Below are positions 33,764-49,397 of a stretch of 64,000 nucleotides of DNA, one piece after another. Made by a program: the position numbers and the translations under genes. Every line of letters begins with the position of its first letter. The stretch's first letter is position 1. This DNA is from Martelella endophytica (GTDB lineage Bacteria; Pseudomonadota; Alphaproteobacteria; Rhizobiales; Rhizobiaceae), in contig NZ_CP010803.1 of assembly GCF_000960975.1 (NCBI RefSeq), positions 2,942,405 to 3,006,404 of the forward strand, read 5' to 3'. Below the pieces are notes generated by a model. It was not told where the DNA came from. It did not search any database and was given only the letters and a program-made list of their open reading frames with translations.

Positions 33764-33848
33764 GCGCGTGTGGCGGAATTGGTAGACGCAGCAGGTTTAG
33801 GTCCTGCCGCCGCAAGGTGTGGGGGTTCGAGTCCCTCCACGCGCACCA
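33764..33848 (+). tRNA. tRNA-Leu (anticodon TAG)
   Basis: The acceptor GCGCGTG pairs with CACGCGC, the anticodon loop is TTTAGGT with TAG, a long variable arm (CGCCGCAAGGTGTGG) identifies a class II tRNA, the T-arm has GTTCGAGTC and CCA is encoded at 33846-33848. Length is 85 bases. It is the last clear host feature before the prophage. Confidence 0.96.
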
Positions 33849-33901: not shown

Positions 33902-33958
33902 TGTTTAATTTTCAGGTCTTGCCTGATCTGTGCTTTTTGTGTATGTAGCGTGACGCGC

Positions 33959-33988
33959 GGTTTTGCAATTTTGACAGCTGGTTTTGCA
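33959..33988. repeat. Two GGTTTTGCA direct repeats 21 bp apart, candidate transposase sites
   Basis: GGTTTTGCA occurs at 33959-33967 and again at 33980-33988, a spacing of 21 bases or two helical turns. Repeated A/T-containing blocks in phase are typical of the ends of Mu-like phages where MuA binds. I cannot identify the terminal TG/CA dinucleotide or the 5-bp target duplication with only one end in view. Confidence 0.35.
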
Positions 33989-34019
33989 GCAGCACAATTA
34001 CATAAATTGCCGGAAGTGG

Positions 34020-35024
34020 CTATCTTTGACCTGTTGTTTCGGTCCATCTCTGACATGAAACATGCTCTTCGCCCCGAGAGTAATAGTGGCACTTCCCGTT
34101 ATTTTTACATCCCCACTCGGGTTCACTCAAAAAGTTAGGGTTGGCCAGCAAATCTCGGCAGAGCCCGATGTGGACGTTCGATGGTAACTCTTTCCTTTTC
34201 GGGAAAATTCTTCCTGACATAATAAACTGCTGGTCTGGGAAATGACTTGCCACTGATAGGCCGTCTGCGAAGCGCTCCGAAATGATTTCTTCTCTGCTAG
34301 GATATATAAGTCTCTTATCAATATTGTAGAACCCGGAGGATAAGTCGACCAAGTCAAACCCCGTGCCGACTATGTCAGTCAAAAAAACTTCGCGGCCATG
34401 AGAGTCAAAATTTGGTTCTCCGCTTCGAAGTGAAATACGGATCGAAGTCTCACTGCCCATCGATCTGAGCCGAGCGGACTGAACTGCCAGCCATTCAAGT
34501 ACTTTCTCCGCTTTGGCGTAGATCCTTTTGTCCACTAATAAGCCAAGAAGATAGCCATGCGCGGCATGGATTTGGATATGCTCAAAGCCTTGATCTAAGG
34601 CCATAGCTGAAGCCAATTCAAAGGAACTGAGGATTTTTTCGACCGAACTATCGTCGATCGCATTTACGAGATCGCGAGAGGCCCTAATAACTTCACGAGC
34701 ATCTTTAGCGACAAACTTCCTGGCACCTTTATATCCTGACCAAGTCGTCGAAAGCTGGATGCCAGGACGAGTACCCCTGGCCTTAACCGCTTTGGCAAGA
34801 TCAGGCCATATGCGATCACGGGTTAGAACCGGTGTAGCCGAATTGGTGCCGTAGCCATCTGGAACCACAACGTTGCCAATAATTGCGCAGTACAAATCTT
34901 TCGAGCTTCGAAGTTCATAAAATTCAACATATCTCTTGTCGGGCATGCCAGACGTAAGGAGCCCCGTGTTTATACCAACGAAAAAGACTCGTTTATCCTT
35001 GGAGATACTCATATCTTCGGCCAT
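34020..35024 (-). CDS. Divergent Old Yellow Enzyme-like flavin oxidoreductase (cassette gene 3)
   Basis: A 334-residue TIM-barrel-type protein resembling NADH:flavin oxidoreductases of the OYE family. Matching parts are YVEFYELR (32-39), GNVVVPDGYGT (50-60), PGIQLSTTW (87-95) and QIHAAHGYLL (151-160), where His153 and His156 are the pair that binds the substrate oxygen in OYE. The usual NxRxDxYGG loop after it is missing. Near the C-terminus GLCRDLLANPNF is followed by Cys306, Cys312 and Cys324, which could hold a metal or Fe-S cluster as in 2,4-dienoyl-CoA reductases. The substrate is unknown. The ATG at 35,024 overlaps the preceding MazG-like gene by 32 bases, so expression is coupled. Base composition is AT-richer than the phage late genes. 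Confidence 0.65.
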   Translation of the reverse strand: MAEDMSISKDKRVFFVGINTGLLTSGMPDKRYVEFYELRSSKDLYCAIIGNVVVPDGYGTNSATPVLTRDRIWPDLAKAVKARGTRPGIQLSTTWSGYKGARKFVAKDAREVIRASRDLVNAIDDSSVEKILSSFELASAMALDQGFEHIQIHAAHGYLLGLLVDKRIYAKAEKVLEWLAVQSARLRSMGSETSIRISLRSGEPNFDSHGREVFLTDIVGTGFDLVDLSSGFYNIDKRLIYPSREEIISERFADGLSVASHFPDQQFIMSGRIFPKRKELPSNVHIGLCRDLLANPNFLSEPEWGCKNNGKCHYYSRGEEHVSCQRWTETTGQR

Positions 35025-35346
35025 TGGCCCTCATCTTTTCAAGAACATCTTTCTCGAGATCGCCGCCTAAAATCACCGATAAACGCATGATATAAATCGT
35101 CGCATCGGCGAGTTCTTCGCGAAGCATAACAGCTTCGTCCTCTAGAGAGGGGCCCCTGTACTTGACGTTGTCTAGAGCCAGTCCGACTTTCTTGAGCCTA
35201 TTGGCGAATTCTCCGACTTCTCCGATTAGGCCAACGGTGTCTTTCATCAACTGGTCGCGTCTTGCCCGATCTGAAGAGAACTCAACCGAGAATCCTCTTT
35301 GGCGATCCGCATCAATCTGAATTTTTACAATCTCGGAGAGTTCCAA
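34993..35346 (-). CDS. MazG-like nucleotide pyrophosphohydrolase (cassette gene 2)
   Basis: A 117-residue all-alpha NTP pyrophosphohydrolase domain. Metal ligands are seen as ExxE in GEVGEFAN (Glu43, Glu46) and ExxD in REELADATIY (Glu78, Asp81); the end KMRANGRRY is typical of the family. Such enzymes remove pyrophosphate from (d)NTPs, often non-canonical ones, giving the monophosphate. The start is a TTG at 35,346 with AAGGAG 8 bases upstream, one base after the stop of the dCTP-deaminase-like gene, so it is strongly coupled to that gene. All catalytic residues that I can see are intact. Confidence 0.75.
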   Translation of the reverse strand: MELSEIVKIQIDADRQRGFSVEFSSDRARRDQLMKDTVGLIGEVGEFANRLKKVGLALDNVKYRGPSLEDEAVMLREELADATIYIMRLSVILGGDLEKDVLEKMRANGRRYEYLQG

Positions 35347-35347
35347 T

Positions 35348-36121
35348 TTATTTCTCCTTAATTCTATTAACTAGGGTTAAAAACAAGCTGATAAGAACAG
35401 TAGAAATTAGATTCACTAATACCGCAGAAAAATTACTCATAAGTCCCGTGCCGGCCAAAAAGAGCGCCGTAGCGTTGATGGCGATCGCTACGCCAAGACC
35501 GATGATGGTGCAAATGCGGAAAAATTCGAGGTCACGAATAACTGTCCGAGTTGCCTGGGGTAGCAAAGCGAAAGCCTCCTCCTTCTCAACAGAAACTCGT
35601 TCATCGCCCTTCACCTCATTGTATTCTTTCTGAAGGTGGTCTTTCAAAGGCCAAATGCCGGCCTGGAACCCGTGCTGACCGACGTAGGGTTTTGTTGAGG
35701 GCGACAATAATTTGCTGAACTCAGCTTTTGCGATAGGCTCTCCCGGAGGCAACTCGATATATTTGTCTCCGATGTTCATCGTCACTAGGCCGAGGTTTCC
35801 CTGAAACCCAGGATCTGCATAGGTTGCGACAGGGCTTAGGCCAATGCTGAAAAGTGCTCCTTTGCTGATCACTCTGACTATAATATCGTCCGGTATCAGA
35901 AGCCTTTCCGCGGTAATAAGCACCACACGATGCCCGGGCTTTATTAGAACTCGCTGTCCTGGTTTCAGTTGAATTCGTTTGGCATCCTCAGAAAGGTCGT
36001 AATACACGTTCCCCATTCGTAGTTGATAGGAAGCGGCTTCCACCATCTCCGCATCGGCATTTAGTATCAGTTGGCCAGCTTCAATAGCCGCTTCAATTTC
36101 GTTATTGCTAAGAGTAGGCAC
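35348..36121 (-). CDS. Catalytically degenerate dCTP deaminase/dUTPase-fold protein with two C-terminal membrane helices (cassette gene 1)
   Basis: A 257-residue protein. Residues 1-165 follow the dCTP deaminase fold: SYQLRMG (31-37), PGHRVVLITAERLLIPDDI (62-80), YADPGFQGNLGL (101-112), ELPPGEPIAKAEF (123-135) and a lid-like YVGQHGFQAG (146-155). The catalytic positions differ by eye: the RSSxAR motif is replaced by SKGALFS (86-92), and the active-site Glu of the VLEF strand is Val or Thr in GLVTMN (111-116). Residues 203-224 and 232-252 are two membrane helices with a short tail. It may thus bind a nucleotide and signal to the membrane without deaminating. The start is GTG at 36,121. It heads a three-gene operon. 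Confidence 0.7.
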   Translation of the reverse strand: MPTLSNNEIEAAIEAGQLILNADAEMVEAASYQLRMGNVYYDLSEDAKRIQLKPGQRVLIKPGHRVVLITAERLLIPDDIIVRVISKGALFSIGLSPVATYADPGFQGNLGLVTMNIGDKYIELPPGEPIAKAEFSKLLSPSTKPYVGQHGFQAGIWPLKDHLQKEYNEVKGDERVSVEKEEAFALLPQATRTVIRDLEFFRICTIIGLGVAIAINATALFLAGTGLMSNFSAVLVNLISTVLISLFLTLVNRIKEK

Positions 36122-36167
36122 TATATCCCCGCATCAATTGCCAAAATTCTCCGTGATATGAACAATA

Positions 36168-36983
36168 TTACGCACTCCAGGACAAGATTTTATTGGAAAT
36201 TAGCACCTCCTTCACGCCCTTCCCATTCCTCTCCGAGATCGAATAGGTGCAATCGACCTCCTCGATCGCGAACCGTGAGAAGGTTTCGAAGACGCCTTGA
36301 ACGGCGTTCAAGGACAGGATGAAGGCTCCTTGAAGGCCCTCTAAGGCCTCCGCCATCGCCTCGAAATCCTCCCGGCCGAAGACGCCCGCGCCATAATCGG
36401 CCTCGTTTCCCCAATAGGGCGGGTCGAGATAGAACAGCATGCCCGGCCGGTCGTAGCGGCGGATGAAGTCTTGCCAGGGCAGGCATTCGATGACGACGCC
36501 GGCGAGGCGCTCGTGGATGTCCTCCAACGTCGAGGCGAGTTTGACCAGGTTGAAGCGGGCGCCGGTGGTCTTGCTGACGCCGAAGTTCCGGCCCGACACC
36601 TTCCCCCCGAAGGCGAGGCGCTGGAGGTAGAGGAAGCGGGCGGCGCGTTCGAGATCGGTCAGCGTCGTGGGATCGGTCTTCATCAGCCGCTCGAACTCCC
36701 GCCTTCCGGAGATCTGGAAGCGGAGCGTATCCATGAACTGCGGGAAGTGCCGCTGCAGGATGCGGAAGAAGTTGGCGACGTCGCCGCTGATATCGTTGAT
36801 CACCTCCGTCCTCGGCTGGCGATCGCGGCGCAGGAACACGCCGCCCATTCCGACGAAGGGTTCGGCATAGCCATCATGCGGGGTCGCGTTGATTTTGCGG
36901 ATAACGGTCTTCGACAGGATGCGCTTGCCGCCGATATAACCGGCTGCGGGAACGACCGGGGCGACCGGGCGCTGATTTACCAT
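36168..36983 (-). CDS. Dam-type DNA adenine N6-methyltransferase (phage)
   Basis: A 271-residue class D12 methyltransferase. It shows the SAM site AAGYIGGK (13-20), EPFVGMGGVF (41-50) and the catalytic DPPY in FYLDPPYWGN (residues 187-190). The recognition site cannot be told; GATC is common for the family. The ATG at 36,983 is preceded by a weak GTGAG site; the longer frame upstream is not coding. It lies downstream of the tail-fibre assembly gene where Mu carries its DNA-modification gene mom, so a role in protecting phage DNA from restriction is likely. Confidence 0.85.
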   Translation of the reverse strand: MVNQRPVAPVVPAAGYIGGKRILSKTVIRKINATPHDGYAEPFVGMGGVFLRRDRQPRTEVINDISGDVANFFRILQRHFPQFMDTLRFQISGRREFERLMKTDPTTLTDLERAARFLYLQRLAFGGKVSGRNFGVSKTTGARFNLVKLASTLEDIHERLAGVVIECLPWQDFIRRYDRPGMLFYLDPPYWGNEADYGAGVFGREDFEAMAEALEGLQGAFILSLNAVQGVFETFSRFAIEEVDCTYSISERNGKGVKEVLISNKILSWSA

Positions 36984-37097
36984 TTCAAATATCTCACGAC
37001 TCAGCCACAAATTGTGTTGCCCCTTCCGGGGCACGGGTGTGGCAGTTATCGTATGTTGCTGCCCGGCGGGTCGATCCGCAATAATTGATCCCGCCGT

Positions 37098-37119
37098 GCC
37101 ATGGCCGTGAGGCCATGGC
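37098..37119 (-). terminator. Strong hairpin at the end of the tail-fibre genes
   Basis: GCCATGGCC at 37098-37106 pairs perfectly with GGCCATGGC at 37111-37119 around the loop GTGA, just after the stop of the fibre-assembly gene. No T-run follows on the minus strand, so termination may be partial. Confidence 0.4.
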
Positions 37120-37129
37120 CACCCGCTTG

Positions 37130-37777
37130 CTACTCTTCGTCCATGCCGGCAAAGGCCGCGTCGACCTCGGCTTGGTTTGAGACAGTGCCGGCGTCGATTG
37201 CGGCATAGACGTCCGCACGCCGGTCGAAGGTCCATTGCACGAATTCGCCGACCCGTTCTGCGATGGCGATCGCTTCGACCGCCGTGAGCGAAAGAACAGC
37301 CGTCCCATCCCCATGCGCATCGAAGGAGAATGTTCGGTCGGCATCCCGTTCGGCCAGTGCCGCCATACCGTTGATCAGGCCGATCGCTTCGCCGTCGCAT
37401 TTAATACGGACGCCATTGATCAAAGGCCCCTCGATACGGGTTTCCCATGACTTCCGTGCCGCATATGCAGACAACTCTGCCTTGGTGGGCGGTATAAACG
37501 GCTTTTCGGCAACAAGGCCGCGGACGGCGGGAGCGCCGATGAAGTCGATCTCGACCGGGTTCGCTTCATCGTCGAACCATGTTTGTCCGCGATGATCCGG
37601 TCTCAAAGACCATGCCCCCTCCGCGAAGACCGCGACCTCGCCATCGGCCGCCGTTGGCGGCTCGAGGTCAGTGGCATAGGCTGGGATCAGAAATCGATGA
37701 GGTTCAAGAGGGTCAAGACGCGCAACCGAGCCGGATACGAGTTCGCCGGTTTCCGGCGCATAATGGAAAATATTCAT
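37130..37777 (-). CDS. Putative tail fibre assembly protein (DUF4376-like C-terminus)
   Basis: A 215-residue protein that follows the tail fibre gene. It starts MNIFHYAPETGELV, a common beginning of phage fibre-associated proteins, and has a C-terminal half with RIKCDGEAIGLINGMAALAE and a heptad-like region as in DUF4376 proteins. Such proteins sit in the position of Mu gpU, the fibre chaperone. The ATG at 37,777 has GGAGGTGG just upstream. Assembly or structural role is inferred from position and size. Confidence 0.6.
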   Translation of the reverse strand: MNIFHYAPETGELVSGSVARLDPLEPHRFLIPAYATDLEPPTAADGEVAVFAEGAWSLRPDHRGQTWFDDEANPVEIDFIGAPAVRGLVAEKPFIPPTKAELSAYAARKSWETRIEGPLINGVRIKCDGEAIGLINGMAALAERDADRTFSFDAHGDGTAVLSLTAVEAIAIAERVGEFVQWTFDRRADVYAAIDAGTVSNQAEVDAAFAGMDEE

Positions 37778-37791
37778 GATCCACCTCCGTC

Positions 37792-38502
37792 TCAGTATTT
37801 GATGATGAACATGGGAGCGATATTGCGTGGCCGCGTGACCGCGTACCACGAGTTCATGTTGGCGAACACGACGGTCGGGTCCGAACTGCCGTAAACGGTG
37901 ACTGTTTGCGTGTATTGCCCCGGATAGACCGGGTCCGCGCCGATCTCCGCGCCCTCACTTTTTCCCTGGACGATAGACCCGTTCGCGCCATCAACATTGT
38001 CATCGTAACCACCGACCAGGGTCCCCTTCTGGAAAGAGCCGAATGCACGGCCAGCGTCAACGCCGCGACCGTGATCCCATCCGCGCAGAAACTCACCGCG
38101 AAGATCCGGAAGCTTGAATGTCGTGGCGCCGTCACCGCCGCCGAAGGTTGTCCCGATCGCGGCGAACAGTCCAGCATATGCCGTTCGCGATATCAGGGCG
38201 CCGTCACATTCGAGCCAACCGGCTGGAGGTTCGTTGGTGTACCAGGTGGATCCGGTACCCGGTGGAACGGTGTTGCGGATCATCTCGGCAATCGCTTTCG
38301 AAAGCTGCGTCAGGTCGCCATCGTCGGGAAGTTGGCCAGACTGAACGATCACGTTCAGCAGCTCTTCTTGAACACTGTTCAGCCACTTGGCCGTAACCAC
38401 AGTGCCTTCCTGGCTGCCGCCTCCGGTCGACAGTATCTGATCCTGAAACCCTCGTTTGCCGTTGCCCAAATCGACGACGGCCGTGCCTGTAATCCGGTCC
38501 AT
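37792..38502 (-). CDS. Phage tail fibre protein with tail-collar domain
   Basis: A 236-residue protein. The centre is a classic phage collar domain: GWLECDGALISRTAYAGLFA and GDGATTFKLPDLRGEFLRGWD. The N-terminal 80 residues carry LNSVQEELLNVI, the tail-attachment type of segment, and the C-terminus ends RPRNIAPMFIIKY as in Mu-like fibres. It should contact the host surface. It is short compared with Mu gpS, so receptor binding may rely on this single domain. It begins 1 base after the gp48-like stop. Confidence 0.85.
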   Translation of the reverse strand: MDRITGTAVVDLGNGKRGFQDQILSTGGGSQEGTVVTAKWLNSVQEELLNVIVQSGQLPDDGDLTQLSKAIAEMIRNTVPPGTGSTWYTNEPPAGWLECDGALISRTAYAGLFAAIGTTFGGGDGATTFKLPDLRGEFLRGWDHGRGVDAGRAFGSFQKGTLVGGYDDNVDGANGSIVQGKSEGAEIGADPVYPGQYTQTVTVYGSSDPTVVFANMNSWYAVTRPRNIAPMFIIKY

Positions 38503-39096
38503 CTAAGCTCCCGAATACTGGAAAATGAGGCGCGTATGCGCCGGTTTTATGAGCAAAAAATACGCCTCGGCCGAACCGTTCACCTGAAATGCCGCAAGCG
38601 AATGCCCGGCCCGGTTCGCACCCGCGCGAAAGGCGGTCACCTCCACGGCCGGCATCGAAACCAGCCAGGTGAACTGTTCGCCCTCGGCAATCAGAGGCGT
38701 ACCGGCACGCAGCACACCGGCCCGTGACGGCCAGAACTCGGTGATTGTGATGTCGAGGTTGAGCACTTCGCCGATGCCGAGAAAATAGGGCACGGACTGG
38801 CCTCCCTTGGCAGTCCAGCGCTGGTGGGCCAGCCTTCTTCGTTCGTCGATGCCGGCGAGCTGCAGGTCGCGCTTTGCCGGATCAGGCCCGAGCACGCGCT
38901 CGAAATCGGCAAGGCAGGCATCGGCCGTGCGCGGGTCGATCTCGTCCATCATGGCGGCGGCGACCCGCTCGCCTTCCTGTATCTCGCCGGCGAAGGCTGC
39001 AAAGAGCGCATCCATGAAGCCGCCCGCCCTTGGCCGGGCAAAGCCGAGCGGCCAATGGGCGCGAAGCGAGCGGACGATATCGGCGATTCGTCTCAT
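38503..39096 (-). CDS. Mu gp48-like tail protein (DUF2313/YmfQ)
   Basis: A 197-residue protein of the DUF2313 family, which links the baseplate to the fibre in Mu-like phages. Visible are DPRTADACLADFERVLGPD and RRRLAHQRWTAKGGQSVPYFLGIGEVLN, the characteristic segment. It overlaps the preceding gp47-like gene by 4 bases, typical of these compact late operons. Structural role by family and position. Confidence 0.85.
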   Translation of the reverse strand: MRRIADIVRSLRAHWPLGFARPRAGGFMDALFAAFAGEIQEGERVAAAMMDEIDPRTADACLADFERVLGPDPAKRDLQLAGIDERRRLAHQRWTAKGGQSVPYFLGIGEVLNLDITITEFWPSRAGVLRAGTPLIAEGEQFTWLVSMPAVEVTAFRAGANRAGHSLAAFQVNGSAEAYFLLIKPAHTRLIFQYSGA

Positions 39097-40247
39097 TCCG
39101 CCTCCGCGAAGCTGATCGCGCCCGTGACCGGGAACTGATAGGCGCCAAGCGTGTAGGTCTCGGCCGGCACGATCAGGTCATGGGCATATTCGCCATTGGC
39201 GGCCGAGATCTCCTCCGAGAGGCGGGAGACTTCGATCGTCGCGCCGATCGGCGTGTCGTTGCCGGTGTCGTCGTCATCGCCAAGTGTCGCGATGAACCGT
39301 CCGAAGGCCTCCTCGATCGCGGCGCGTACCACCGGCGTGTCCGGCCTGATCCTGACGGTGAGCGGCACGGCGACGATCTCGGCGGCGTGGACGCTGACAT
39401 AGGCGGTGACCGGGCGAACGCCCTCCGGCGTCAGCGGCCGGCCGAGATGGGCAAGCATCGCGGCGCGCTCATCATCGCTCGGCGCCCGGCCAATGCCGTC
39501 TTCGTCCTTCATGGCGACCACGACGCCGACGGAGCCACGGCCGACGACATCGGGAATGATCCGCACCGCCTTGATCGCGAATTTGTCGTCGAGCCAGTCG
39601 GAATAATCGTAGCCGGCGCCGCCCTGCGGTGGCTTGCGAATATGGGCGATGGTCGCCGACTGAAGCTCGGCGACCGGCATCTCGTCGGCGCCGCCGGAAA
39701 AGGCGACGGCGATGGTGATCGTGTCGATCTCCGGCCAGGGCTCGACCGTTGAAAGCTGAATGCCGGCTTCGTAGTTGCCGGCGGTCCCGGCGGCTGCCGC
39801 CGTCGCGGGCGCCGTCACCGTGCCATCCGCGCCGATCGTGGTCTCAACATCGAGGGCGAAGACGCGGCCTTCCGACGAGGTCATCTGAAGATCGGCCGGC
39901 AGCACCGTGCCGGGTTCGCCGGTGATCGCCACGGAGCCGACCGCATAGGTCGCGCCGCGCTGCTTGACGCCCCAGATCGAGGCGTGGCGCAGGACGAACT
40001 CATCCTCGGCCGTATCCACGAAATATTGCCGGCCCCACCAGGCCACATGGCTATGGATGGAGCGGAGCTCCAGCGAGACCGACCGCAAGATCCAGGCAAG
40101 CAGGCCGCGCGAGGAGCGAACCGCAAACGAGATCGCTTTCGGTGTGTAGGAAATAGCCTTTGCGTCGAGCACCCCGGCAAGGCCGGCCTCCAGCGTTGCC
40201 GCCATGCGGGCCGCGATCGTCTTGGCGGAGGGAACGGGCCAGCTCAT
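39093..40247 (-). CDS. Baseplate J-like protein (Mu gp47)
   Basis: A 384-residue baseplate wedge protein related to P2 gpJ. It contains ATYAVGSVAITGEPGTVLPADLQM and PPQGGAGYDYSDW, both found in the baseplate J/gp47 family, and an internal VPLTVRIRPD region. The ATG at 40,247 overlaps the gp46-like stop by 4 bases. It forms the six arms of the baseplate with the gp46 and gp48 types. Confidence 0.9.
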   Translation of the reverse strand: MSWPVPSAKTIAARMAATLEAGLAGVLDAKAISYTPKAISFAVRSSRGLLAWILRSVSLELRSIHSHVAWWGRQYFVDTAEDEFVLRHASIWGVKQRGATYAVGSVAITGEPGTVLPADLQMTSSEGRVFALDVETTIGADGTVTAPATAAAAGTAGNYEAGIQLSTVEPWPEIDTITIAVAFSGGADEMPVAELQSATIAHIRKPPQGGAGYDYSDWLDDKFAIKAVRIIPDVVGRGSVGVVVAMKDEDGIGRAPSDDERAAMLAHLGRPLTPEGVRPVTAYVSVHAAEIVAVPLTVRIRPDTPVVRAAIEEAFGRFIATLGDDDDTGNDTPIGATIEVSRLSEEISAANGEYAHDLIVPAETYTLGAYQFPVTGAISFAEAE

Positions 40248-40720
40248 TGGTCGACCCTCTTGGTGATCTCGATTGCCTCGCCGGAAACCGAGCACCGCAG
40301 CCGCAGAAGATTGCGGGCATGCCACCAGGCTTCGACCTCGGCCGTCTCGCCGGTCATATCCTCGGCCCAGAACAGGCTTTCGGCGGCGAAGTATTCGGCG
40401 AGAAGCCGGGTCTCCTCGGTCTGCTTGTTCCGGGAAAGCTCCCAGAGCCTAGAGCCGGAAAAGCGGCCGTCGATATCGAGCGCGTCTCCGGCGCTGCCGC
40501 GGCGTTCGAGGAAGGAGGAGGGATTGGCCGACCATTGCGAGCGGCCATCCGGCAGCGTGTCGCCGGCAAGCGCGCGGGCGTCGAGCCCGATCGACATCAG
40601 CATCGGCGTCGCGGGCGTGGTGTCGATCACAAGATCGCCATCGGCGCCGAGTGAGATATCGCAGGCGCGGGCATCCTGATCGAGAATGAGGGCAACATCG
40701 CAAAACATGGGCGCGAGCAT
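40244..40720 (-). CDS. Mu gp46-like baseplate protein
   Basis: A 158-residue GP46 family protein. It has FCDVALILDQDAR, ISLGADGDLVIDTTPATPM and the Trp-rich centre WWHARNLLRLRC. Starts at 40,720 or 40,708 (MFCDVAL) are both possible and neither has a good ribosome site. The family is part of the Mu baseplate, comparable to P2 gpW (T4 gp25). Confidence 0.85.
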   Translation of the reverse strand: MLAPMFCDVALILDQDARACDISLGADGDLVIDTTPATPMLMSIGLDARALAGDTLPDGRSQWSANPSSFLERRGSAGDALDIDGRFSGSRLWELSRNKQTEETRLLAEYFAAESLFWAEDMTGETAEVEAWWHARNLLRLRCSVSGEAIEITKRVDQ

Positions 40721-40763
40721 GACACGCGCGCGCGTGAGCCGATCATGCCCGCCGTTGCGGGCA

Positions 40764-41285
40764 TCAGGTCATTTGCGGAGTGGGTGGGGGACCGCCGGGA
40801 TGGCCATGGCCGTTATACTGCTCGCGCATTTCCTGCATCGAGCCGTTCTTGTCGGTCACATTGCCGCTCGCCTCGATGTCGCCTTCGACCTTCAGGATTT
40901 GCGCGGTGATGAACACACCGGCATCGGTCTTGATCGTGATCTGCGCGCCGGTCTTGATGTCGAGCGTGCCGTCGGCCTTGAGCACCATACGATCGCCGCC
41001 GCTGTTGTAAAGGCCGACCTCGTTCTCCTTCAGCCCGCCCATGCGCGCGGAGGGATTGGCGACAGGCAGCACGACCAGGTCGCCCTCATCGCCGCCGACG
41101 GCAAGCACGATCGCCAGCGCGCCGTCTTCCGGCACATGGGCGGCGAAGCCATAGGGCTGCATCACCTCGACATCGTGGCGCCAGACGCCATCGGCGACCT
41201 CGACGGAGGCCGTCTGCACGGCGCCGTTGTCTTTCACATTCTTCAGAACGGAGCGGCGGATCATGCCGCGATTGGTCTCTGTCAT
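40764..41285 (-). CDS. Mu gp45-like baseplate spike protein
   Basis: A 173-residue protein of the Mu gp45 (gpV-like) family. It has MIRRSVLKNVKDNGAVQTASV at the start, an OB-fold-like part with VMQPYGFAAHVPEDGALAIVL, and the repeated region TLDIKTGAQITIKTDAGVFI typical of a beta-helical membrane-piercing spike, ending in GHGHPGGPP, a His-rich metal-binding tip. The ATG at 41,285 has GGAAGGA upstream, so the longer frame is rejected. Confidence 0.88.
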   Translation of the reverse strand: MTETNRGMIRRSVLKNVKDNGAVQTASVEVADGVWRHDVEVMQPYGFAAHVPEDGALAIVLAVGGDEGDLVVLPVANPSARMGGLKENEVGLYNSGGDRMVLKADGTLDIKTGAQITIKTDAGVFITAQILKVEGDIEASGNVTDKNGSMQEMREQYNGHGHPGGPPPTPQMT

Positions 41286-41310
41286 TTTATTCCTTCCGCG
41301 CGTTGCGAAC

Positions 41311-41331
41311 GGAAAAGTCTGCAACTTTTCC
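41311..41331. repeat. Inverted repeat between gp44 and gp45 genes
   Basis: GGAAAAGT at 41311-41318 pairs with ACTTTTCC at 41324-41331 around CTGCA. It is similar in its arms to the element at 42,543 and to palindromes scattered in rhizobial genomes; it lies in the only sizable gap of this part of the late operon. Confidence 0.5.
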
Positions 41332-41340
41332 TGCCCGCGC

Positions 41341-42528
41341 TCATAGTCTCTCCGCCGTCGTGTCGAGCGCCTTCTTCTGCTTGGCCACCTTGTTCTTGCG
41401 CTGCTTCTTCTTGGGCTCGCCCTTCTCGAAGCTCTCCGGCGAGATGACGCCGAGGCTGGTGATTTGGCCGTCGTCATTGTTCTGGATGAAGGTCACCTTC
41501 GAGATCAGCATGTCGCGGTTGATGTCGTTGAACGCATCCGAGACCGGCACGATCGTGTTCGGCCGCCAGAGCTTGCCTTCCACCGAATGCCCGCGCCGGA
41601 TATAGGTGACCTCGGCGGCCGCACCCCGCGCTGTGTTGCGCCGCCACTCCGCCTCGGCCCTGGCGCTGTCGTGATCGGCCTTGGTGCGGGCGAGATAGAC
41701 CTTCGGCCGGTAGCGCCCGATCTCCTCATCCTCGGCAATGCCGGTGACGGCCGTACCCGCTCGCTCGGTTCTCGTGGCGCTGCCATCGCCGGCGGCGCGA
41801 TCGGCCGGCAGAAGCGGCTCGGCCGTGGTGTCGAGGCTTGCCTTGCCGCGCTTCTTGCCGGCACGCTCGCTGGTGCCGCGCACGATCGTCTTCGAATAGC
41901 TTTGCTCGTCGCTCTCATCGATCGAGGCCTTCAGCACATTGCCTGGCAGCGTGATCGCGTCGGCAGCGCGGGTGCCGCCGGAGCGGGTGATCACCACATT
42001 GCCGATACCATCGGAGAGAACCCGCGCCTGGCGCTGGCGGGCGCCTTTCTCGATCGCGGTGAACGGGCTTTCGTCGAGATCGATGCTGTAGCGGGGAAAC
42101 GGCGCGCCGGTGTCGATCTCTGTACGCACGCCGATGCCATAGGGTTTGATGATCCGCGCGACCGCATCCTCCAGTTTCACATTGTGCATCTCGGCCGGCG
42201 TGTCATCGACGAGGGCGGTGCAGTCGACGAGGTCGCCAAGCTTGCAACGGCCCTCGACGGTGATATCGGCGAAGGCGGCCTCGATATTGGACGAGCGCTT
42301 CTCGATCCGGCCGTTCAGCACGGTGACGCCATCAACCTTGATCGACACGGCCGCGCGGCGCTGCAGACGTTTGTTCTTGGCGCTGTGGACATGGGCGAGC
42401 GCCGCCGCCGAGGCCTCCTGGTCGTGGCAATAGAGCGAGAAGCGCGCGGAGAACTCCTTCATGTCGAGTTCGACCTCCGCGCCGGTCCAGCCTTCGAATA
42501 GTGCGCCGTCGATCGTCACCTCAATCAT
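41341..42528 (-). CDS. Mu gp44-like baseplate hub protein (gpP)
   Basis: A 395-residue tail hub protein of the Mu gpP / P2 gpD group. It starts MIEVTIDGALFEGWTGAEVEL and has VKLEDAVARIIKPYGIGV and SPFTAIEKGARQRQARVLSDGIGNVV, typical of hub domains; the C-terminus is very basic. It joins tube and spike. The ATG at 42,528 has AGGGA upstream; an ATG at 42,546 is also in frame but overlaps the repeat. Confidence 0.88.
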   Translation of the reverse strand: MIEVTIDGALFEGWTGAEVELDMKEFSARFSLYCHDQEASAAALAHVHSAKNKRLQRRAAVSIKVDGVTVLNGRIEKRSSNIEAAFADITVEGRCKLGDLVDCTALVDDTPAEMHNVKLEDAVARIIKPYGIGVRTEIDTGAPFPRYSIDLDESPFTAIEKGARQRQARVLSDGIGNVVITRSGGTRAADAITLPGNVLKASIDESDEQSYSKTIVRGTSERAGKKRGKASLDTTAEPLLPADRAAGDGSATRTERAGTAVTGIAEDEEIGRYRPKVYLARTKADHDSARAEAEWRRNTARGAAAEVTYIRRGHSVEGKLWRPNTIVPVSDAFNDINRDMLISKVTFIQNNDDGQITSLGVISPESFEKGEPKKKQRKNKVAKQKKALDTTAERL

Positions 42529-42542
42529 GGCATTGTCCCTGC

Positions 42543-42586
42543 GCATGCCCGGACGGAAAACCGGTATCCACTTTTCCTGGTCATGC
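42543..42586. repeat. Rhizobial-type interspersed palindromic element
   Basis: The stretch starts GCATGC, has GGAAAACCGGTATCC then ACTTTTCC in the centre and ends TCATGC. Elements with this layout (GCATG ends, an AAAACCGG half and a CACTTTTC half) are, to my knowledge, scattered in large numbers through Hyphomicrobiales genomes. Here it spans the junction between the gp43- and gp44-like genes. Confidence 0.55.
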
Positions 42587-43813
42587 TTTCAGCACCTTGA
42601 TGCTTCCGGCTGGAAGCTGCGCCGGATGACGCGGCCGGTTGCGCGCAACGATGTCGGCCCAGACCGCCTCGATCGCCGCCGGGTTCTCGCCTGCGATATG
42701 GGTGGCGATCATCCAGGCGTCGGTCGGCCCGGCAAGCGTGAGCGTCAGCGTTTCCGGCAACTGCCCGATGATCTCATTCAGCGCGCCGGTCACCTCGGCC
42801 TTCAACCCCTCAAGTGCGGAGACCAGTCCATCGACCTCGCCGTCATAGCGGCCGGAGGAGAGCTGGCCGACCGACTCGATCAGGCGATCGGCCGCAGCAT
42901 GCATGCGGGCGCGGGACGCAAGCGCGGTCTCGGCGCTGTCGAAATCGGAGTAGGGGACCTGCGCCACCGCCTGCGACAGGCAGTGCGCCGAGGCGGCAGC
43001 AATCAGCGCCCGGTCGGGATCGGACGGCGCTGCCGCGATCGCGCCGGCAAGCGATGAGGCGAGCGAAACGCCGATCGCGGTCAGCGCCGCCGGCGTCGCC
43101 GCGACCTCCGGAACCGCCTCGGCCGCGGCCGCGACGAACGGGGTTTGGGAGGCTTCCCCGAAGCGGCTGGCGAGATCCGCGACCTCGGCGTCGAACGCTT
43201 CGGGCGTCGTCGGCGCGAGCTGTGCCGTTGCGTCTTGCAGGCGCGGCAGAAACCGGGCGGAACCGTTGACGGGCTGGAGCACACCCGCCGCATCCTGCAC
43301 GACGCCCGCGCTGCGGTTGACCGCCCGCGTGCGCGCCGCCGAGATCGATCGGGTCGAGACCGCGCTCGCCAGCAGCGAGGCCGCCGAGGCGACGAGCGCC
43401 ACGGCCGTAAGCACGCCTGAAAGCCCGTTTGAAAGGCTCGTGAAGCCGGTTTGAACCTTCCTGAATTTCGCGGAAAAGCGGACGGCGCGCAGCTCGCGCG
43501 AGGCAAGCGAGATCGTGGCGGGCTCGGTGAGGATCACCTGCATCGGCCCCTGCCAGGGATGGATCAGCATCGCCGGGCCGGACTGGTTGAACGCCGCCTC
43601 AAGCGCGACCGCCTGCGCCTGGTAGAAGTCGCCGATGATCACGCCGTTAATCGAAACCTCGGCCGCGGCTCGGCCGAAGTCGTCATAGGCCGCGTCGTCA
43701 ACGCCGGGAAACAGATATTCGACCAGGCGCCGGCCGGCCTTGGTGGTGGTGTCGGGCACATCGAAGGCGATGCCGCGATAATAGCCGGTGACAAGGCCGG
43801 GAAGCGTTGCCAT
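42581..43813 (-). CDS. Mu gp43-like protein (gpN, DNA circularisation N-terminal domain)
   Basis: A 410-residue tail protein. The N-terminus YYRGIAFDVPDTTTKAGRRLVEY and VSINGVIIGDFYQAQAVALEAAFNQSGPAMLIHPWQGPM are typical of the DNA circularisation protein family, although the protein is a tail component in Mu. The rest is Ala-rich and helical. The start overlaps the tape-measure stop by one base. Confidence 0.85.
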   Translation of the reverse strand: MATLPGLVTGYYRGIAFDVPDTTTKAGRRLVEYLFPGVDDAAYDDFGRAAAEVSINGVIIGDFYQAQAVALEAAFNQSGPAMLIHPWQGPMQVILTEPATISLASRELRAVRFSAKFRKVQTGFTSLSNGLSGVLTAVALVASAASLLASAVSTRSISAARTRAVNRSAGVVQDAAGVLQPVNGSARFLPRLQDATAQLAPTTPEAFDAEVADLASRFGEASQTPFVAAAAEAVPEVAATPAALTAIGVSLASSLAGAIAAAPSDPDRALIAAASAHCLSQAVAQVPYSDFDSAETALASRARMHAAADRLIESVGQLSSGRYDGEVDGLVSALEGLKAEVTGALNEIIGQLPETLTLTLAGPTDAWMIATHIAGENPAAIEAVWADIVARNRPRHPAQLPAGSIKVLKA

Positions 43814-46128
43814 CAGGGCATCCCCACGGCGCGGCCGGTGTTAAGCTTGACGTCGCCGCTCGTTTTCGCCGACGAATGCGTCACGGCCGTTCCGGGCTCG
43901 GCCTTCACCGTGATCTCGCCGTTGAAATTGCCGTTGGCGGCAACGGGCGCGGCCTGCTGAGCGGTGGCGCCGCCCGTGCCACCCATCCACTTTGGACGGT
44001 TCTCCCAGCTCGGCCAGCTGATCAGCGAAGAGATGTCGATGCTGCCGATCGCCGAGAGAATACGGCTGCCGATATTGCCGAACCAACTCACCAACTCGTC
44101 GATCGTGCCCTTGACCGCGTCGACCATTGCCTGGGCGGCACGCGCTCCGCTATCACGAAAACCGGCCTCCATCTCGTCGGAATAGTCCTTCATGGTGAAG
44201 ACCGACTTGATGCTGCCCCAGAGATCGAGACCAGAGAACCAGCCGGTGAGCTCGTTCCACCAGCCCTCTACCACGGCCCGCGCCTCGGCGAGCTCGGACG
44301 AGATGGCGGCCGTATCGACACCGAAGAAGGCAGCGAGATCGACGACCTGACCGCCGACCCAGCCGGCAAAGTCGGAAAGCGCCCCCATCACGTCGCCGAC
44401 GGCGTCCCAGATGACCGAGGCAAACCCAGCAATGAAATTCGAGATCGGCTCCCAGTAATGCCAGACGGCCACGCCGATGGCGGCGACCGCGGCAACGATG
44501 GCTGCAATCAGCGCCCATATCGGCGCGGTGATGCCGGCAAGCGCGCCGCCTATTGCGGCCATCACGGCCATCAGGCCCTCAAACAGGAAAGATAGGCCGG
44601 GGATGGCAAACAATATGCCGCGAAATCCCGTCGCAAGACGGCCAAGCCACGAAAGCTTCATGCCATTCATGCCGGCGAGCGACGATTGTAGGCCGATTGA
44701 TCCGGCTGCGGCGCGGTAGAAATAGAGGGCGAGCCGCAAGGCCCCTTTGCCGGCAAGCCAGAGGGGCGAAAGGATGAGCCGCAACCCGGCAATGACCGGC
44801 GGCAGCACGAAACCGATGACGCCGAGCGCGCCCCCGAGCAGAACGCCGGCCCCGCCAAGCCTCAGAGCCTCGCGCCCGCCGCCATTGGTTTCTTCGTTCC
44901 AGGCGCGTAGCTGGTCGAGCCCGGCCTTCAGATGCGTGTTGATCGCGGGCAGCCATTCGCCGAAAGCCATGCCCACTTCGCGGACGGCCTGCGTACCGAT
45001 CTCCCGGAAGGTGATGAGCTGGCGGTTGAGGCCCTGCATCTGCGTGTCGAAATCGGCGTCGATGATCGAGCCGTCGGCCTCGGCCATCTTGTCGCGGATC
45101 GCCTTGTACTCATCGACGTTCGCCATGAACGGGATCAGGAAATCCATCACCTGCTGATCCTGGAACAACTCGCCGAGACCGCCGGCGCCGGCGATCTGGA
45201 CGAGCTGCTCGCGCACAGCATCGAGCGCTTCGGCGCCTTCGAGCCCGTTCGCTTTTGCGGCTTCCATCATGTCGGCGATCTGGTTTTCGGAAACGCCGGT
45301 CAGTTTCATGACCTTCTGCAGCACCGCCTCGATCGGGTTAATGCCCTTGGTCGCGGCGTCCTGCATGACCGCCTGGATATCGACGCCCATATCCTTGAAG
45401 TTCTTCACCGTCGCGGGTGCCAGGATCTTCGACAGGAAGTTCTTGAGGTTGTTGGCCGCCTCGGCCGGATCGGACGTGCCCTTGCGGGCGATCTGCAGGG
45501 CGGCGCCGAGAAAGCCGACGGCTTCCTGTCCCTTGACGCCGAACTTCGCCACCTGGCTGGTCAGCGATGGGAAGTAGCGCGCCATGTCCTTCAGCTCGAA
45601 GGCGCCGAGCTTGCCGGATGTGACCAGCATCGCCAGAACCTTCTCGATCTGATCGGCCGGCACGCCGAGCGTCATCATCGACGAGGTGGCGACCGCGGCG
45701 ATGTCGTCCGTCGAGGCATTGGCCGCCGTCGCAACCCTGGCAATGTCGTCGATCGCGCCGTCGATCAGCGCACCGTCGAGACCCGCGGCAAACATGTTGG
45801 CAACCGCCGAGGCGATGCCATCGGAGGTCTGTCCGGTCGCAAGCGCGAGATCCTCGAACCGCGCCTTCTGCTGTTCGGTAAACTTGAAGGCGGCAGCGCC
45901 CGTCAGCTCGGCCGTGCCCGCCATGTCCAACAGCTTTTGCTGGAAATCGGCAGCGCCCGCGATCGGCGCCATGAAGGAGATGCCGGCGACGGCCGCGCCG
46001 ATAATGCCGATGCGGCCGGCAAGGCCGGTGAAGCCACGCACCGCGCCGGAAAGCCGGCGGAGCGGCCCGCTCATCAGGTCGCGTAGACGGACGAGAACGT
46101 CCAGCGTCATCTGCCCCGATCCGGCCAC
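43813..46128 (-). CDS. Tail tape measure protein
   Basis: A 771-residue protein whose length should set the tail length. It has an N-terminal basic helix, LSGPLRRLSGAVRGFTGLAGRIG, and family segments FKFTEQQKARFEDLALATGQTSDGIASAVANMFAAGLD and AFELKDMARYFPSLTSQVAKFGVKGQEAVGFLGAALQIARKG in outline, then several hydrophobic stretches (about 430-460 and 510-560) that could enter the host membrane. It starts with GTG at 46,128, one base after the stop of the frameshifted chaperone. Rough tail length at 1.5 angstrom per residue would be about 115 nm. Confidence 0.92.
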   Translation of the reverse strand: MAGSGQMTLDVLVRLRDLMSGPLRRLSGAVRGFTGLAGRIGIIGAAVAGISFMAPIAGAADFQQKLLDMAGTAELTGAAAFKFTEQQKARFEDLALATGQTSDGIASAVANMFAAGLDGALIDGAIDDIARVATAANASTDDIAAVATSSMMTLGVPADQIEKVLAMLVTSGKLGAFELKDMARYFPSLTSQVAKFGVKGQEAVGFLGAALQIARKGTSDPAEAANNLKNFLSKILAPATVKNFKDMGVDIQAVMQDAATKGINPIEAVLQKVMKLTGVSENQIADMMEAAKANGLEGAEALDAVREQLVQIAGAGGLGELFQDQQVMDFLIPFMANVDEYKAIRDKMAEADGSIIDADFDTQMQGLNRQLITFREIGTQAVREVGMAFGEWLPAINTHLKAGLDQLRAWNEETNGGGREALRLGGAGVLLGGALGVIGFVLPPVIAGLRLILSPLWLAGKGALRLALYFYRAAAGSIGLQSSLAGMNGMKLSWLGRLATGFRGILFAIPGLSFLFEGLMAVMAAIGGALAGITAPIWALIAAIVAAVAAIGVAVWHYWEPISNFIAGFASVIWDAVGDVMGALSDFAGWVGGQVVDLAAFFGVDTAAISSELAEARAVVEGWWNELTGWFSGLDLWGSIKSVFTMKDYSDEMEAGFRDSGARAAQAMVDAVKGTIDELVSWFGNIGSRILSAIGSIDISSLISWPSWENRPKWMGGTGGATAQQAAPVAANGNFNGEITVKAEPGTAVTHSSAKTSGDVKLNTGRAVGMP

Positions 46129-46129
46129 C

Positions 46130-46725
46130 TCAGCTCTCCTTCATTTCCTTGCGCGCATGCATGATGGCATTCCACCAGAAGATCAGCTCACGGCCGTTCA
46201 TGGCGAGGATCTCGGCGGCGCCGAAACCCGAGTGCTCGGCGAGAAAGCCGGTCAGGACGCCCGCGTTTTCGGGCCACTCGTCAAAAAATGGTTGAGCACC
46301 CGGCCGCCGCCGGCAATGTCGGTGGCGTCAAGCTTGTCCCAGACCGCGTTCATCACCGCCTGATTGAGGCGGCAGGAACGCGCGAAGGTGACGATGTTCT
46401 GCAGGTTGTCGGGCGCCTCGGAAATCACGCGGGTGTCGAGGCCGGTCAGACGATGGAAAGTCAGGCTTTCGAACACCTTCTCCTTGATCTTGCCCGACGC
46501 CCGGACCTTGATCCTGACGGTCTCGTAGAGCGGCAGCGTGATCGTGCCATCGGCGTTGCGGATCGCATGCGACGGCAGCTTGTCGAGCGGATCGGTCGCA
46601 TCCTCGTCGACGATATCGTCGTCGGCCTTCTGAACGGACACACCGGTGTCTTCATCGACGATGGTTTCGTCAACAACGGTTTCCTCGTCGTCGAGGTCGA
46701 TTGCGGCAATGGTCTTCGTCGTCAT
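46130..46725 (-). CDS. Tail assembly chaperone, -1 frameshift product (gp41-gp42 type)
   Basis: The zero-frame gene (46,252-46,725) reads up to TTG at 46,284-46,282; slipping one base back on T TTT TTG (46,288-46,282) continues with DEWPENAGVLTGFLAEHSGF and 30 more residues to a TGA at 46,132-46,130. The product would have 198 residues. The extension ends KEMKES directly before the tape-measure GTG, exactly where tail phages place the longer chaperone form. The extra domain includes GFGAAEILAMNGRELIFWWNA. Both forms are needed in known phages, with the long one rarer. Confidence 0.75.
46252..46725 (-). CDS. Tail assembly chaperone, short form (Mu gp41-like)
   Basis: A 157-residue protein. 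The first 60 residues are acidic (IDLDDEETVVDETIVDEDTG), then comes the TAC-type domain with RIKVRASGKIKEKVFESLTFHRLTGLDTRVI in outline and NLQNIVTFARSCRLNQAVM. It coats the tape measure during tail assembly. The ATG at 46,725 overlaps the tail tube stop by 4 bases. Translation normally ends at the TGA at 46,252-46,254, and a share of ribosomes is expected to shift at 46,282-46,288. Confidence 0.82.
   Translation of the reverse strand: MTTKTIAAIDLDDEETVVDETIVDEDTGVSVQKADDDIVDEDATDPLDKLPSHAIRNADGTITLPLYETVRIKVRASGKIKEKVFESLTFHRLTGLDTRVISEAPDNLQNIVTFARSCRLNQAVMNAVWDKLDATDIAGGGRVLNHFLTSGPKTRAS
46282..46288 (-). promoter_or_regulatory. Slippery heptamer T TTT TTG for -1 programmed frameshifting
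   Basis: On the minus strand the codons are CAT TTT TTG ACG in the zero frame. The heptamer T TTT TTG matches X XXY YYZ exactly. Shifting back one base opens a 50-codon frame that ends just before the tape-measure gene. No clear downstream pseudoknot was worked out; GC-rich sequence follows. Confidence 0.75.
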
Positions 46726-47084
46726 CCGATGATCTCCTGCGCCTCTCCGGCAGCCCATTTGAGTTCGATCTGGCCATCCGTCGCGCCCGTCGTCTCGGGG
46801 CGGTCGCCCTCAAGAAAAGCGTCCTCGAAGACGTAGGTCTGGCCGGTGTCGCACACGACCTGCAGCTCGCCTTCCTCATGGTCGAGAAGGTCGACGAGCG
46901 ACTGTCCCTTTTCGAGGTTGGTGGTCGCGGTGATTTCGGAGCCCTGAAACTCCTGAAAGCGGCCGACGCCGCGCCCATAGGCCGTGGCGGTGTTCTTGAT
47001 GCCGCCGAGCCGGAGCTTGGCCCCGGTTTTGACGGGGATCGTCCGTCCCTTCCAGACGATATCGATGATGCCAAGTGTCTGCAT
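46722..47084 (-). CDS. Tail tube protein (Mu gpM, gp40)
   Basis: A 120-residue protein with the tail tube pattern: VKTGAKLRLGGIKNTATAYGRGVGRFQEFQGSEITATT in outline and a C-terminal DGQIELKWAAGEAQEIIG. It forms the inner tube of the contractile tail inside the sheath. It starts 12 bases after the sheath stop, with GGAGCC upstream. Confidence 0.92.
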   Translation of the reverse strand: MQTLGIIDIVWKGRTIPVKTGAKLRLGGIKNTATAYGRGVGRFQEFQGSEITATTNLEKGQSLVDLLDHEEGELQVVCDTGQTYVFEDAFLEGDRPETTGATDGQIELKWAAGEAQEIIG

Positions 47085-47096
47085 GGTCGGCTCCTA

Positions 47097-48581
47097 TCAG
47101 ACGAGGAATTCGAGGCTGGAGGCGAACACCATCTGGTTGCCGACGATCTGGACGATCTGCCGGGCATTGGTGCGGTTACGGTCGTTCGGATCGCGCTCGA
47201 AGGTGGAGGCCTCGATCGTCGCCTCGGCGTTCTCGATCCAGACGAGGCCGGCATAGCGCTGGCAGCGCGCCGCCCAGGTGCCCTTGATCCGGCCGGGCGA
47301 AACCACGGCGGAACCGGCGGCCTTGTCGCCCTCGGCGCGGCGCGTCTGAAACTGCTTGCCGTCGTCGACCAGCTTGGCGCGCGGATAGAGCGTGTTGAAA
47401 TAGGCCGACCAGTCGTAGCGGATCCGCGACATGGTCGCCGGCACCATGATGTCCATCCAGGCATCGTCGAGCACGCCGAGCGACGTCTTCTTGTAGGTGG
47501 TCACCATGCGGTTGATCACGGTCGAGCCGTCGTCGAGGTGGAGATAGGTCGACACACCGTGCTGCAGCAGAAGATTGCGCTCCTCCCACGAAAACTGGTC
47601 CTCGATGTCGGGTGCTTCGACGCCGTTCACGACCAGGCTCTTCAGCTGGCGCGCCGGATCGTTGGAAAGGTGGAAGGCGGCAAGCGCGCAGTCGGCCGCC
47701 GCATGCACCCAGGACGAGGTCGGCGAGCGCGACAGGCAGGACAGCGACAGGAAGGCGCAGTTGGTGAGATCGCCGAGCGTCACCGCCTGGGCATAGGTCG
47801 CCCGCTTGCCGGTGAAGCCATGGCAATCGAGCTTGGCCGTCGCCACGTAGCGCGCGTTCAGCCATTCGGCGAAGAGCTGGACATTGGTGACATCGGACCA
47901 GGGATGCTGGAGCTTGGTGAACCAGGCATTCTCGATCAGGTCGAGCACGTCCTGCAGGTCCGGATTGCCGGCGCCGCCCGCCATGTCGGCAACCGCGATC
48001 GTCAGCCCCTCGGGCACCGGCTGGGCGGTCACGTCGACGCGCAGGTCGATATCGTTGCCGACCTCGCCGCCGTTCTTCGCGGTCACGGTCACGACGCCGG
48101 CGGCGGCGGCGGCCGTCACAACGATATCGGGTTCCGCCGTGATCGCCGCGGCAAGTTTGGTGGCGAGCGCGGCGACGTTATCGGTCGCAAGCGCCGAGAC
48201 GCGGATCCGCACGCCTGCGATCTTGAAGCGAAGCACGGTCGACTGCGAAGGCGCGCCCGTAAAAGTGATGGTGCCGGTGGCCTTCACCGCATCGTCGGCA
48301 TCAGCAAGCGTCGTCACATAAAGCGGCGTGGTCTTGTTGACCTTGCGGAAGGCGGCGACCTGCTCGGCGCCGATCGAGCCCCGGCCGAAATAGGCGGTCG
48401 CCTCGTCGCCGCGCGTGATCTGGCGGATCTGGCCGGGCTCAAGTGTGCCGGCGGCAAGCTTGTGGCCGGCGATCAGAACCTTTTCCGGCCAGGCGTAAAT
48501 GCCCTTCTGGCTGTAGTTCGGCTTGACCTCGATAAAGATGGCGGGGTCGTACCAGGTCATCGGGATTTCGTCGAAGTCCAT
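47097..48581 (-). CDS. Tail sheath protein (Mu gpL, gp39)
   Basis: A 494-residue contractile sheath protein. It begins MDFDEIPMTWYDPAIFIEV with the typical PGIFIEVN-like start, has a GTITFTGAP / KIAGVRIRV insertion-type domain, and ends with VWIENAEATIEASTFERDPNDRNRTNARQIVQIVGNQMV in outline, the conserved C-terminal handshake region. It shows that the phage is a myovirus. Size matches Mu gpL (495). Confidence 0.94.
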   Translation of the reverse strand: MDFDEIPMTWYDPAIFIEVKPNYSQKGIYAWPEKVLIAGHKLAAGTLEPGQIRQITRGDEATAYFGRGSIGAEQVAAFRKVNKTTPLYVTTLADADDAVKATGTITFTGAPSQSTVLRFKIAGVRIRVSALATDNVAALATKLAAAITAEPDIVVTAAAAAGVVTVTAKNGGEVGNDIDLRVDVTAQPVPEGLTIAVADMAGGAGNPDLQDVLDLIENAWFTKLQHPWSDVTNVQLFAEWLNARYVATAKLDCHGFTGKRATYAQAVTLGDLTNCAFLSLSCLSRSPTSSWVHAAADCALAAFHLSNDPARQLKSLVVNGVEAPDIEDQFSWEERNLLLQHGVSTYLHLDDGSTVINRMVTTYKKTSLGVLDDAWMDIMVPATMSRIRYDWSAYFNTLYPRAKLVDDGKQFQTRRAEGDKAAGSAVVSPGRIKGTWAARCQRYAGLVWIENAEATIEASTFERDPNDRNRTNARQIVQIVGNQMVFASSLEFLV

Positions 48582-48584
48582 CGA

Positions 48585-48821
48585 TCAGTCCTCGCTCTTT
48601 TCCGTGGTGGTTTTCTTCGTTGCGGGCGCGCTGGCCTCGACCAGGTCGCCGTCGCGCAGGCGCCTTCGGACAAACAGCGTGTCGTCGACTTCGACGCCCG
48701 CTGCCGGCACGATCGCGCCGCCCGGCAGGGCAACGCCCGGAACCGTCTTCTCGGCATTCGCCGCGTCCCGGATCGTCAGCGTCCGGCCTTCGCCCGGCTT
48801 TACAAATTTCCGATGGCCCAT
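48585..48821 (-). CDS. DUF2635 protein (Mu gp38-like)
   Basis: A 78-residue protein, FVKPGEGRTLTIRDAANA then VDDTLFVRRRLRDGDLVEA, matching DUF2635, found next to the sheath gene in Mu-like phages. Role unknown. The ATG at 48,821 has GGGAGCC upstream; the longer open frame to 49,172 belongs to the antisense composition of the gp37 gene. Confidence 0.82.
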   Translation of the reverse strand: MGHRKFVKPGEGRTLTIRDAANAEKTVPGVALPGGAIVPAAGVEVDDTLFVRRRLRDGDLVEASAPATKKTTTEKSED

Positions 48822-48823
48822 CG

Positions 48824-49396: not shown

Positions 49397-49397
49397 C

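Follow-up and report, generated by a model that had tools for sequence, protein, structure and literature searches.

The window, a stretch of 64,000 nucleotides from Martelella endophytica (NZ_CP010803.1), carries three ORFs on its minus strand which encode, in reading direction, a DCD protein, a MazG-like protein, and an OYE-like protein. Gene 1 (35348-36121, minus strand; GTG start) encodes a protein of 257 aa with the DCD (dCTP deaminase/trimeric dUTPase) fold and two C-terminal membrane segments. After a 1-base gap follows gene 2 (34993-35346, minus strand; TTG start), which encodes a MazG-like NTP pyrophosphohydrolase of 117 aa. Gene 3 (34020-35024, minus strand) overlaps gene 2 by 32 bases and encodes an OYE-family FMN protein of 334 aa. 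The G+C content of the trio region (34001-36000) is 47-48%, compared to 58-69% per kb in 36001-56000. The initial annotation of this DNA had described three co-directional ORFs with this gap and overlap, of lower G+C than the phage late genes, at the right end of a Mu-like prophage. The coordinates, the minus strand, and the G+C values bear out the first two points, and the Pfam Mu transposase and MuB domains, the ends, and the GTGTA duplication bear out the third.

The prophage spans window coordinates 33944-77119 (43,176 bp), so that 13,119 bp of it lie beyond the window. Its right end is a 48-bp sequence (33944-33991, plus strand; it starts 5'-TGTAGCGTGACG) that is present in relatives too. 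Both prophage ends begin 5'-TGT and are flanked on each side by the 5-bp target duplication GTGTA (unstranded), one copy at 33939-33943 and the second beyond the window, just past the left end at 77119. The joined flanks align over 77 columns with genome G007, which is phage-free at that point. Because the two ends, the duplication, and this empty site were all located, the trio can be assigned to the phage itself; it lies 76 bp in from the right end, between that end and an adjoining D12-class adenine methyltransferase gene of the prophage (36168-37400, minus strand). Pfam identifies Mu transposase domains in the transposase (DDE_2, E 1.6e-43) and a MuB C-terminal domain in the product of the adjacent gene (E 1e-21). 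A duplication length of 5 bp is a Mu trait; MuA/MuB, 5'-TGT ends, and the 5-bp duplication, by which a Mu-like transposable prophage is recognized, were all found here. Ends of the form 5'-TGT are mentioned for Mu-like phages (PMC4378225). A host tRNA-Leu (33764-33848, plus strand) adjoins the right end of the prophage. An integrase-type element at this tRNA, as suggested by the 48-bp repeat, was considered and rejected; the repeat is a Mu-like right end with a 5-bp duplication.

Other phages of this type carry different genes at the same place. In a related prophage of genome G004 (e.g., 84% identity over 7,368 aligned bases), the methyltransferase is kept and other short ORFs replace the trio. 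Three more pieces with the same right end, from G004, G012, and the genome of the window itself (125.1-127.6 kb), carry a DUF2971 gene, a gene with no Pfam match, and a DUF4238 gene, respectively. Thus, four comparable phage right ends have other genes next to the D12 methyltransferase. The DUF2971 gene has a PADLOC match at 2.8e-42 and the DUF4238 gene one at 1.8e-9, and the right-end gene of G012 and the one in-phage ORF of G004 that was scanned have none; PADLOC-listed genes thus occur at two of these four sites. The piece from the same genome is a remnant of another Mu-like right end (window coordinates 125141-127583, L113), about 48 kb beyond the prophage, with the DUF4238 gene and a truncated D12 methyltransferase. 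At its left end, the prophage itself encodes a type II restriction enzyme (PADLOC 1.9e-55) and a methyltransferase (7.4e-204); this restriction-modification pair lies with a gene for a Schlafen AlbA_2/AAA ATPase protein at window coordinates 70933-76385 (L110, 14338-19790). Defence-like cargo is therefore present at both prophage ends.

The DCD assignment of gene 1 is supported by a match to Pfam PF22769 above the cut-off (E 1.9e-14) and by a best profile match among solved structures to 8y1w (E 2.6e-20), an archaeal protein called dCTP deaminase. An AlphaFold2 model (mean pLDDT 85.4, pTM 0.71) predicted a strand-rich domain with two long helices after it, and two hydrophobic segments lie at residues 197-254. 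Compared to the Dcd proteins 2qxx and 8y1w, the trio protein shares the fold, the Pfam DCD domain, and a conserved stretch around D-P-G-F-x-G, but differs in the K-S-S-L-G-R stretch, in the Glu position, and in having C-terminal membrane segments or a MazG fusion. In the HMMER alignment to 2qxx, K-S-S-L-G-R is changed to K-G-S-L-F-S in the family consensus and to K-G-A-L-F-S in the window, and the consensus has Val in place of the Glu. The catalytic Ser, Arg, and Glu of Dcd dCTP deaminase are thus absent from the DCD family in this alignment. Gly, Ser/Ala, and Val/Ile stand at the deaminase places in 119 of 120 homologues (the best 120 of 545, the window protein included), with one outside the pattern. 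The window protein also scores 70 against TIGR02274, below the cut-off of 92.8. The missing Glu alone is not decisive, because 8y1w keeps Ser and Arg and has Met at the Glu position. The missing deaminase residues taken together argue for binding rather than deamination, and the protein could have another activity.

The protein encoded by gene 2 is small and carries the E-x-x-E...E-x-x-D motif of MazG-type NTP pyrophosphohydrolases, which is intact in all 17 aligned sequences. It differs from those enzymes in scoring under the Pfam cut-off (PF12643, E 0.0018; 18.9 bits against 27, and also 14.6 against 22) and in standing with DCD and OYE genes at the loci examined here. A single clade of 37 proteins combines the DCD signature with the MazG motif in one chain, and this natural fusion suggests that DCD and MazG act on one molecule. 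It is likely that the two proteins form a functional unit.

The fusions also bear on the role of the membrane segments. Among the homologues listed, 112 of the 119 unfused DCD proteins have two hydrophobic segments (three segments in 3, one in 3, and none in 1), and two-TM effectors are known in defence. These observations would suit a system in which a nucleotide is detected by the DCD protein, whose two membrane segments would then open the membrane or damage it, with MazG and OYE producing or clearing the signal. However, no membrane segment was found in any of the 31 DCD-MazG fusions of at least 300 residues, or in the fusion of genome G345, whose locus still retains the OYE gene and its overlap. 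The membrane part therefore looks dispensable and seems replaceable, and the exchange of a membrane tail for a MazG fusion speaks against killing at the membrane, which makes such a membrane effector rather unlikely.

Gene 3 matches Oxidored_FMN (PF00724) above the cut-off (E 1.7e-7), and all 51 members of the OYE sequence set A3 match this family. Its closest solved relative is YqjM (1z41; E 1e-17, aligned over profile positions 32-298). The YqjM class of OYE ene-reductases shares this profile alignment and the H-x-x-H-G-Y motif with gene 3, but a C-terminal C-x5-C-H-x10-C tail is confined to gene 3 and its homologues in this comparison: the motif and the tail occur together in 120 of 120 homologues (the best 120 of 406, the window protein included), and the tail in none of 75 generic OYE ORFs. 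The classic C-x2-C-x3-C spacing was likewise found in 0 of these 75 ORFs, a set that holds no true example of it. The tail presumably resembles the Fe-S cysteines of dienoyl-CoA reductases; a comparison with solved-structure sequences gave one match, by chance. The conservation of both active-site and tail motifs is what would be expected if the OYE protein were the effector, released or activated by a DCD-MazG sensor on infection and then burning NAD(P)H or making peroxide, and cofactor depletion is a known defence strategy. Yet nothing ties OYE activity to infection and OYE oxidase activity is slow, and we regard an effector of this kind as improbable.

Collectively, these results uphold the initial annotation of gene 1 as a dCTP-deaminase-fold protein with two TM helices (PF22769 and the segments at 197-254) and of gene 3 as an OYE-like flavoprotein (PF00724 and H-x-x-H-G-Y). 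Its call of a MazG-like pyrophosphohydrolase for gene 2 is supported by the intact motif and left short by the Pfam score. Two of its interpretations fared less well. First, the parallel to dCTP deaminases that deplete nucleotides in phage defence does not fit a DCD protein that lacks the deaminase residues; those defence enzymes presumably have a different (zinc deaminase) fold. Second, the proposal that the membrane protein acts at the membrane is weakened by the absence of membrane segments from 31 of 31 tested fusions and from the G345 fusion.

The complete trio, in a constant gene order, is present at each of the 14 loci of this OYE subfamily that could be assessed, namely, the window, L002-L011, L089, L090, and L095/L097; L088 was left out, as this piece holds only an OYE gene at its edge. 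Some of these loci are near relatives (L002/L004, L005/L006, and L089/L090), and some are irregular: OYE is split by insertion sequences in L004, MazG lies in two frames in L006, and DCD is cut at the contig end in L010. Identity to the window proteins is 50-64% in most Alphaproteobacteria (49% for the lowest OYE), 46% in G345, 39-48% in the L089/L090 prophages, and 28-44% in Priestia (Bacillota). Recurrence of the same gene order in such distant bacteria places the arrangement beyond chance. The OYE loci from genome contigs were the best 80 of 314 relatives, of which 5 were true members and the other 75 served as controls; a DCD or MazG match (E<=1e-3) was found in 0 of these 75 loci, in searched flanks that were in some cases short. 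The initial annotation had named a lack of co-occurrence in other genomes as refuting, and it was not refuted on this count. When approached from the DCD side, all five plasmid records above 40% identity were the same trio loci, with the other 18 below 35%. Furthermore, in six further genomes the locus tags of the OYE and DCD homologues are spaced as for one gene between them.

The MazG frame overlaps the OYE frame at every one of the 13 loci measured (L006 left out), by 11-32 bases at the nearest usable start. The overlap is 32 bases, through a usable ATG, at 7 of the 13, including the fusion locus, 26 bases at L089 and L090, 20 at Priestia L005, and 11 at L002, L003, and L004. A fixed overlap of 32 bases was rejected: 10 of 13 loci show 32 as the aligned register, but L002 and L004 (in-frame stop) and L003 (no start) have a later usable start. 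The overlapping frames suggest coordinated synthesis of OYE and MazG. In Priestia L005, a DUF4062-like gene (13099-13968; PDC-S60, E 2.3e-27; Pfam DUF4062 just under the cut-off) comes after the trio in the same orientation and may be a fourth gene.

The trio is rare. With the centre genome counted each time, the OYE gene occurs in 1 of 61 relatives, 2 of 397 genomes of the order, and 1 of 242 genomes of the genus of G345; the DCD gene occurs in 2 of 398 genomes of the phylum, and both of these carry the trio. Its carriers are prophages, plasmids, defence-rich regions, and other genome contigs. The OYE protein had no match in the "phages" collection, where DCD had 15 records, all below 39% identity and mostly annotated as dUTPase or dCTP deaminase; the viral_contigs collection gave the prophage of the window itself, L088, L089, and L090. 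A gene set confined to phages was rejected, since plasmids and other genome contigs also carry the trio. Ordinary host metabolism was rejected because of the patchy distribution, the mobile locations, and the missing deaminase residues. The trio is real, conserved, and mobile.

The genes around the trio were compared at 10 of the 14 loci (all but the window itself and the near-duplicate loci L002, L006, and L090) and at 10 generic-OYE loci, with up to 15 nearest ORFs per locus; the 17 longest of 143 control ORFs were left out. Strong PADLOC matches (E<=1e-40, without methyltransferases and a generic kinase) were found at 7 of 10 trio loci and at no more than 2 of 10 control loci, which are not taxon-matched. 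At this threshold, 134 trio-neighbour ORFs matched 66 PADLOC families, many of these being redundant models for the same protein, and 126 control ORFs matched 2 families, with one ORF each. Among proteins scanned singly, the neighbours are Gabija GajA and GajB at L003, a CBASS phospholipase and cyclase 308 bases upstream at L004, CARF6 and dGTPase at L009, CARF6 at L011, CARF-STK-AAA at L097, and the candidate defence families PDC-M37B and PDC-S14 at L005 and L010. The uncounted loci are L007 and L089, with methyltransferases, and L008, where eight ORFs scanned singly gave one match, to a generic kinase model, at a distance of about 7 kb. The enrichment in defence regions that the initial annotation had proposed as a check was thus seen in a small sample without taxon matching, and the neighbourhood is an association only.

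The neighbourhoods also bear on the question of whether the trio serves the phage or plasmid in other ways than against other phages, through nucleotide house-cleaning, protection from host defences, or maintenance of the element. Such fitness cargo would agree with the location in prophages and plasmids, and MazG enzymes are classed as house-cleaning enzymes. However, the trio is also found outside phages: on plasmids it neighbours Gabija and CBASS genes, and on genome contigs CARF, dGTPase, and methyltransferase genes. A DCD protein without its deaminase residues is ill-suited to house-cleaning. Fitness cargo of this kind is therefore an unlikely explanation.

Since the unit turns up again in distantly related bacteria, usually with known or candidate anti-virus genes as neighbours, we prefer to read the trio as an anti-virus system; it is probably an undescribed anti-phage system of nucleotide-handling proteins and a flavin enzyme, and a defence function as such is likely. 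PADLOC-DB 2.0.0 gave 0 families at E<=1 for the DCD, MazG-like, and OYE-like proteins, in keeping with the initial view that no named defence system has this combination, and a search of the open-licence PMC literature did not find the gene combination described. To our knowledge, there is no precedent for an OYE protein in defence. The available part of the DefensePredictor report lists MazG and dUTPase domains as predicted, unvalidated defence domains (PMC13092281); it thus names the same domain classes but does not describe the DCD/MazG/OYE trio itself, and the words "flavin", "oxidoreductase", and "deaminase" are absent from its main text. Because such domains are listed there as predicted and unvalidated, the operon makes this prediction directly testable. 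In the available parts of the respective reports, Clover combines a dGTPase with a nucleotidyltransferase (PMC12265719) and Kongming uses a dITP messenger (PMC12948488), so that nucleotides and nucleotide enzymes take the part of signal, sensor, or effector there in defence against phages, as proposed for the trio. The proteins described for these systems are different ones; the trio is set apart from them by these descriptions, with protein comparison through PADLOC only.

Taken as a whole, the best explanation, to which we give about an even chance, is a mobile anti-phage operon, carried here as cargo of a Mu-like prophage, that withdraws nucleotides and includes a reductive step. It builds on the observed unit, gene order, overlap, fusion, motif states, mobility, and defence neighbourhoods, and proposes from them the defence role, the substrate, and the order of steps. 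First, the DCD subunit, having lost deaminase activity, would bind a (deoxy)nucleotide and hand it to MazG, which would cleave the bound nucleotide to the monophosphate. DCD and MazG would work as one unit held at the membrane by the DCD tail, but in one clade the two are fused without the tail. Second, OYE would carry out a flavin-dependent reduction of the same nucleotide or its product. Third, the nucleotide pool needed by an incoming phage would be withdrawn or spoiled. A nucleotide-withdrawing unit is favored by the fusion, the overlapping frames, the missing deaminase residues, and the exchange of tail for fusion. The reductive step is a guess, because no OYE precedent in defence is known to us, and we hold it to be possible but doubtful.

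A more specific form of this chemistry would have DCD and MazG pass a pyrimidine deoxynucleotide to OYE, a flavin enzyme that may also contain a metal or Fe-S center and that would reduce the base. The resulting 5,6-dihydropyrimidine nucleotide would then starve DNA synthesis of the phage, poison it, or act as a signal. Ordinary metabolism includes FMN barrel enzymes by which the 5,6 bond of pyrimidines is formed or reduced, which makes the reaction feasible; as an account of the trio it is quite improbable. If the proposed anti-phage system is confirmed, flavin-dependent reduction would join the enzymes of bacterial immunity, a deaminase fold would have been reused as a nucleotide-binding part, and a compact system would be at hand whose natural fusion hints at which subunits touch.

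Two further groups of genes were noted near trio loci. In Sinorhizobium, Hephaestia, and Mesorhizobium, the trio is adjoined by a four-gene set that encodes a CARF6-like protein, an ORC/CDC6-like ATPase, a metallophosphoesterase, and an adenine methyltransferase (L002 10610-15376, L004 from 21620, L009 3195-8654, and L011 4850-10255). CARF6 was scanned in L002, L009, and L011, and the ATPase was identified by Pfam in L011 only; the set is possibly a separate system. Near the fused trio, L097 encodes at 13284-14528 a protein with no Pfam match that looks thymidine phosphorylase-like by eye, beside the CARF-STK-AAA and cytosine methyltransferase genes.
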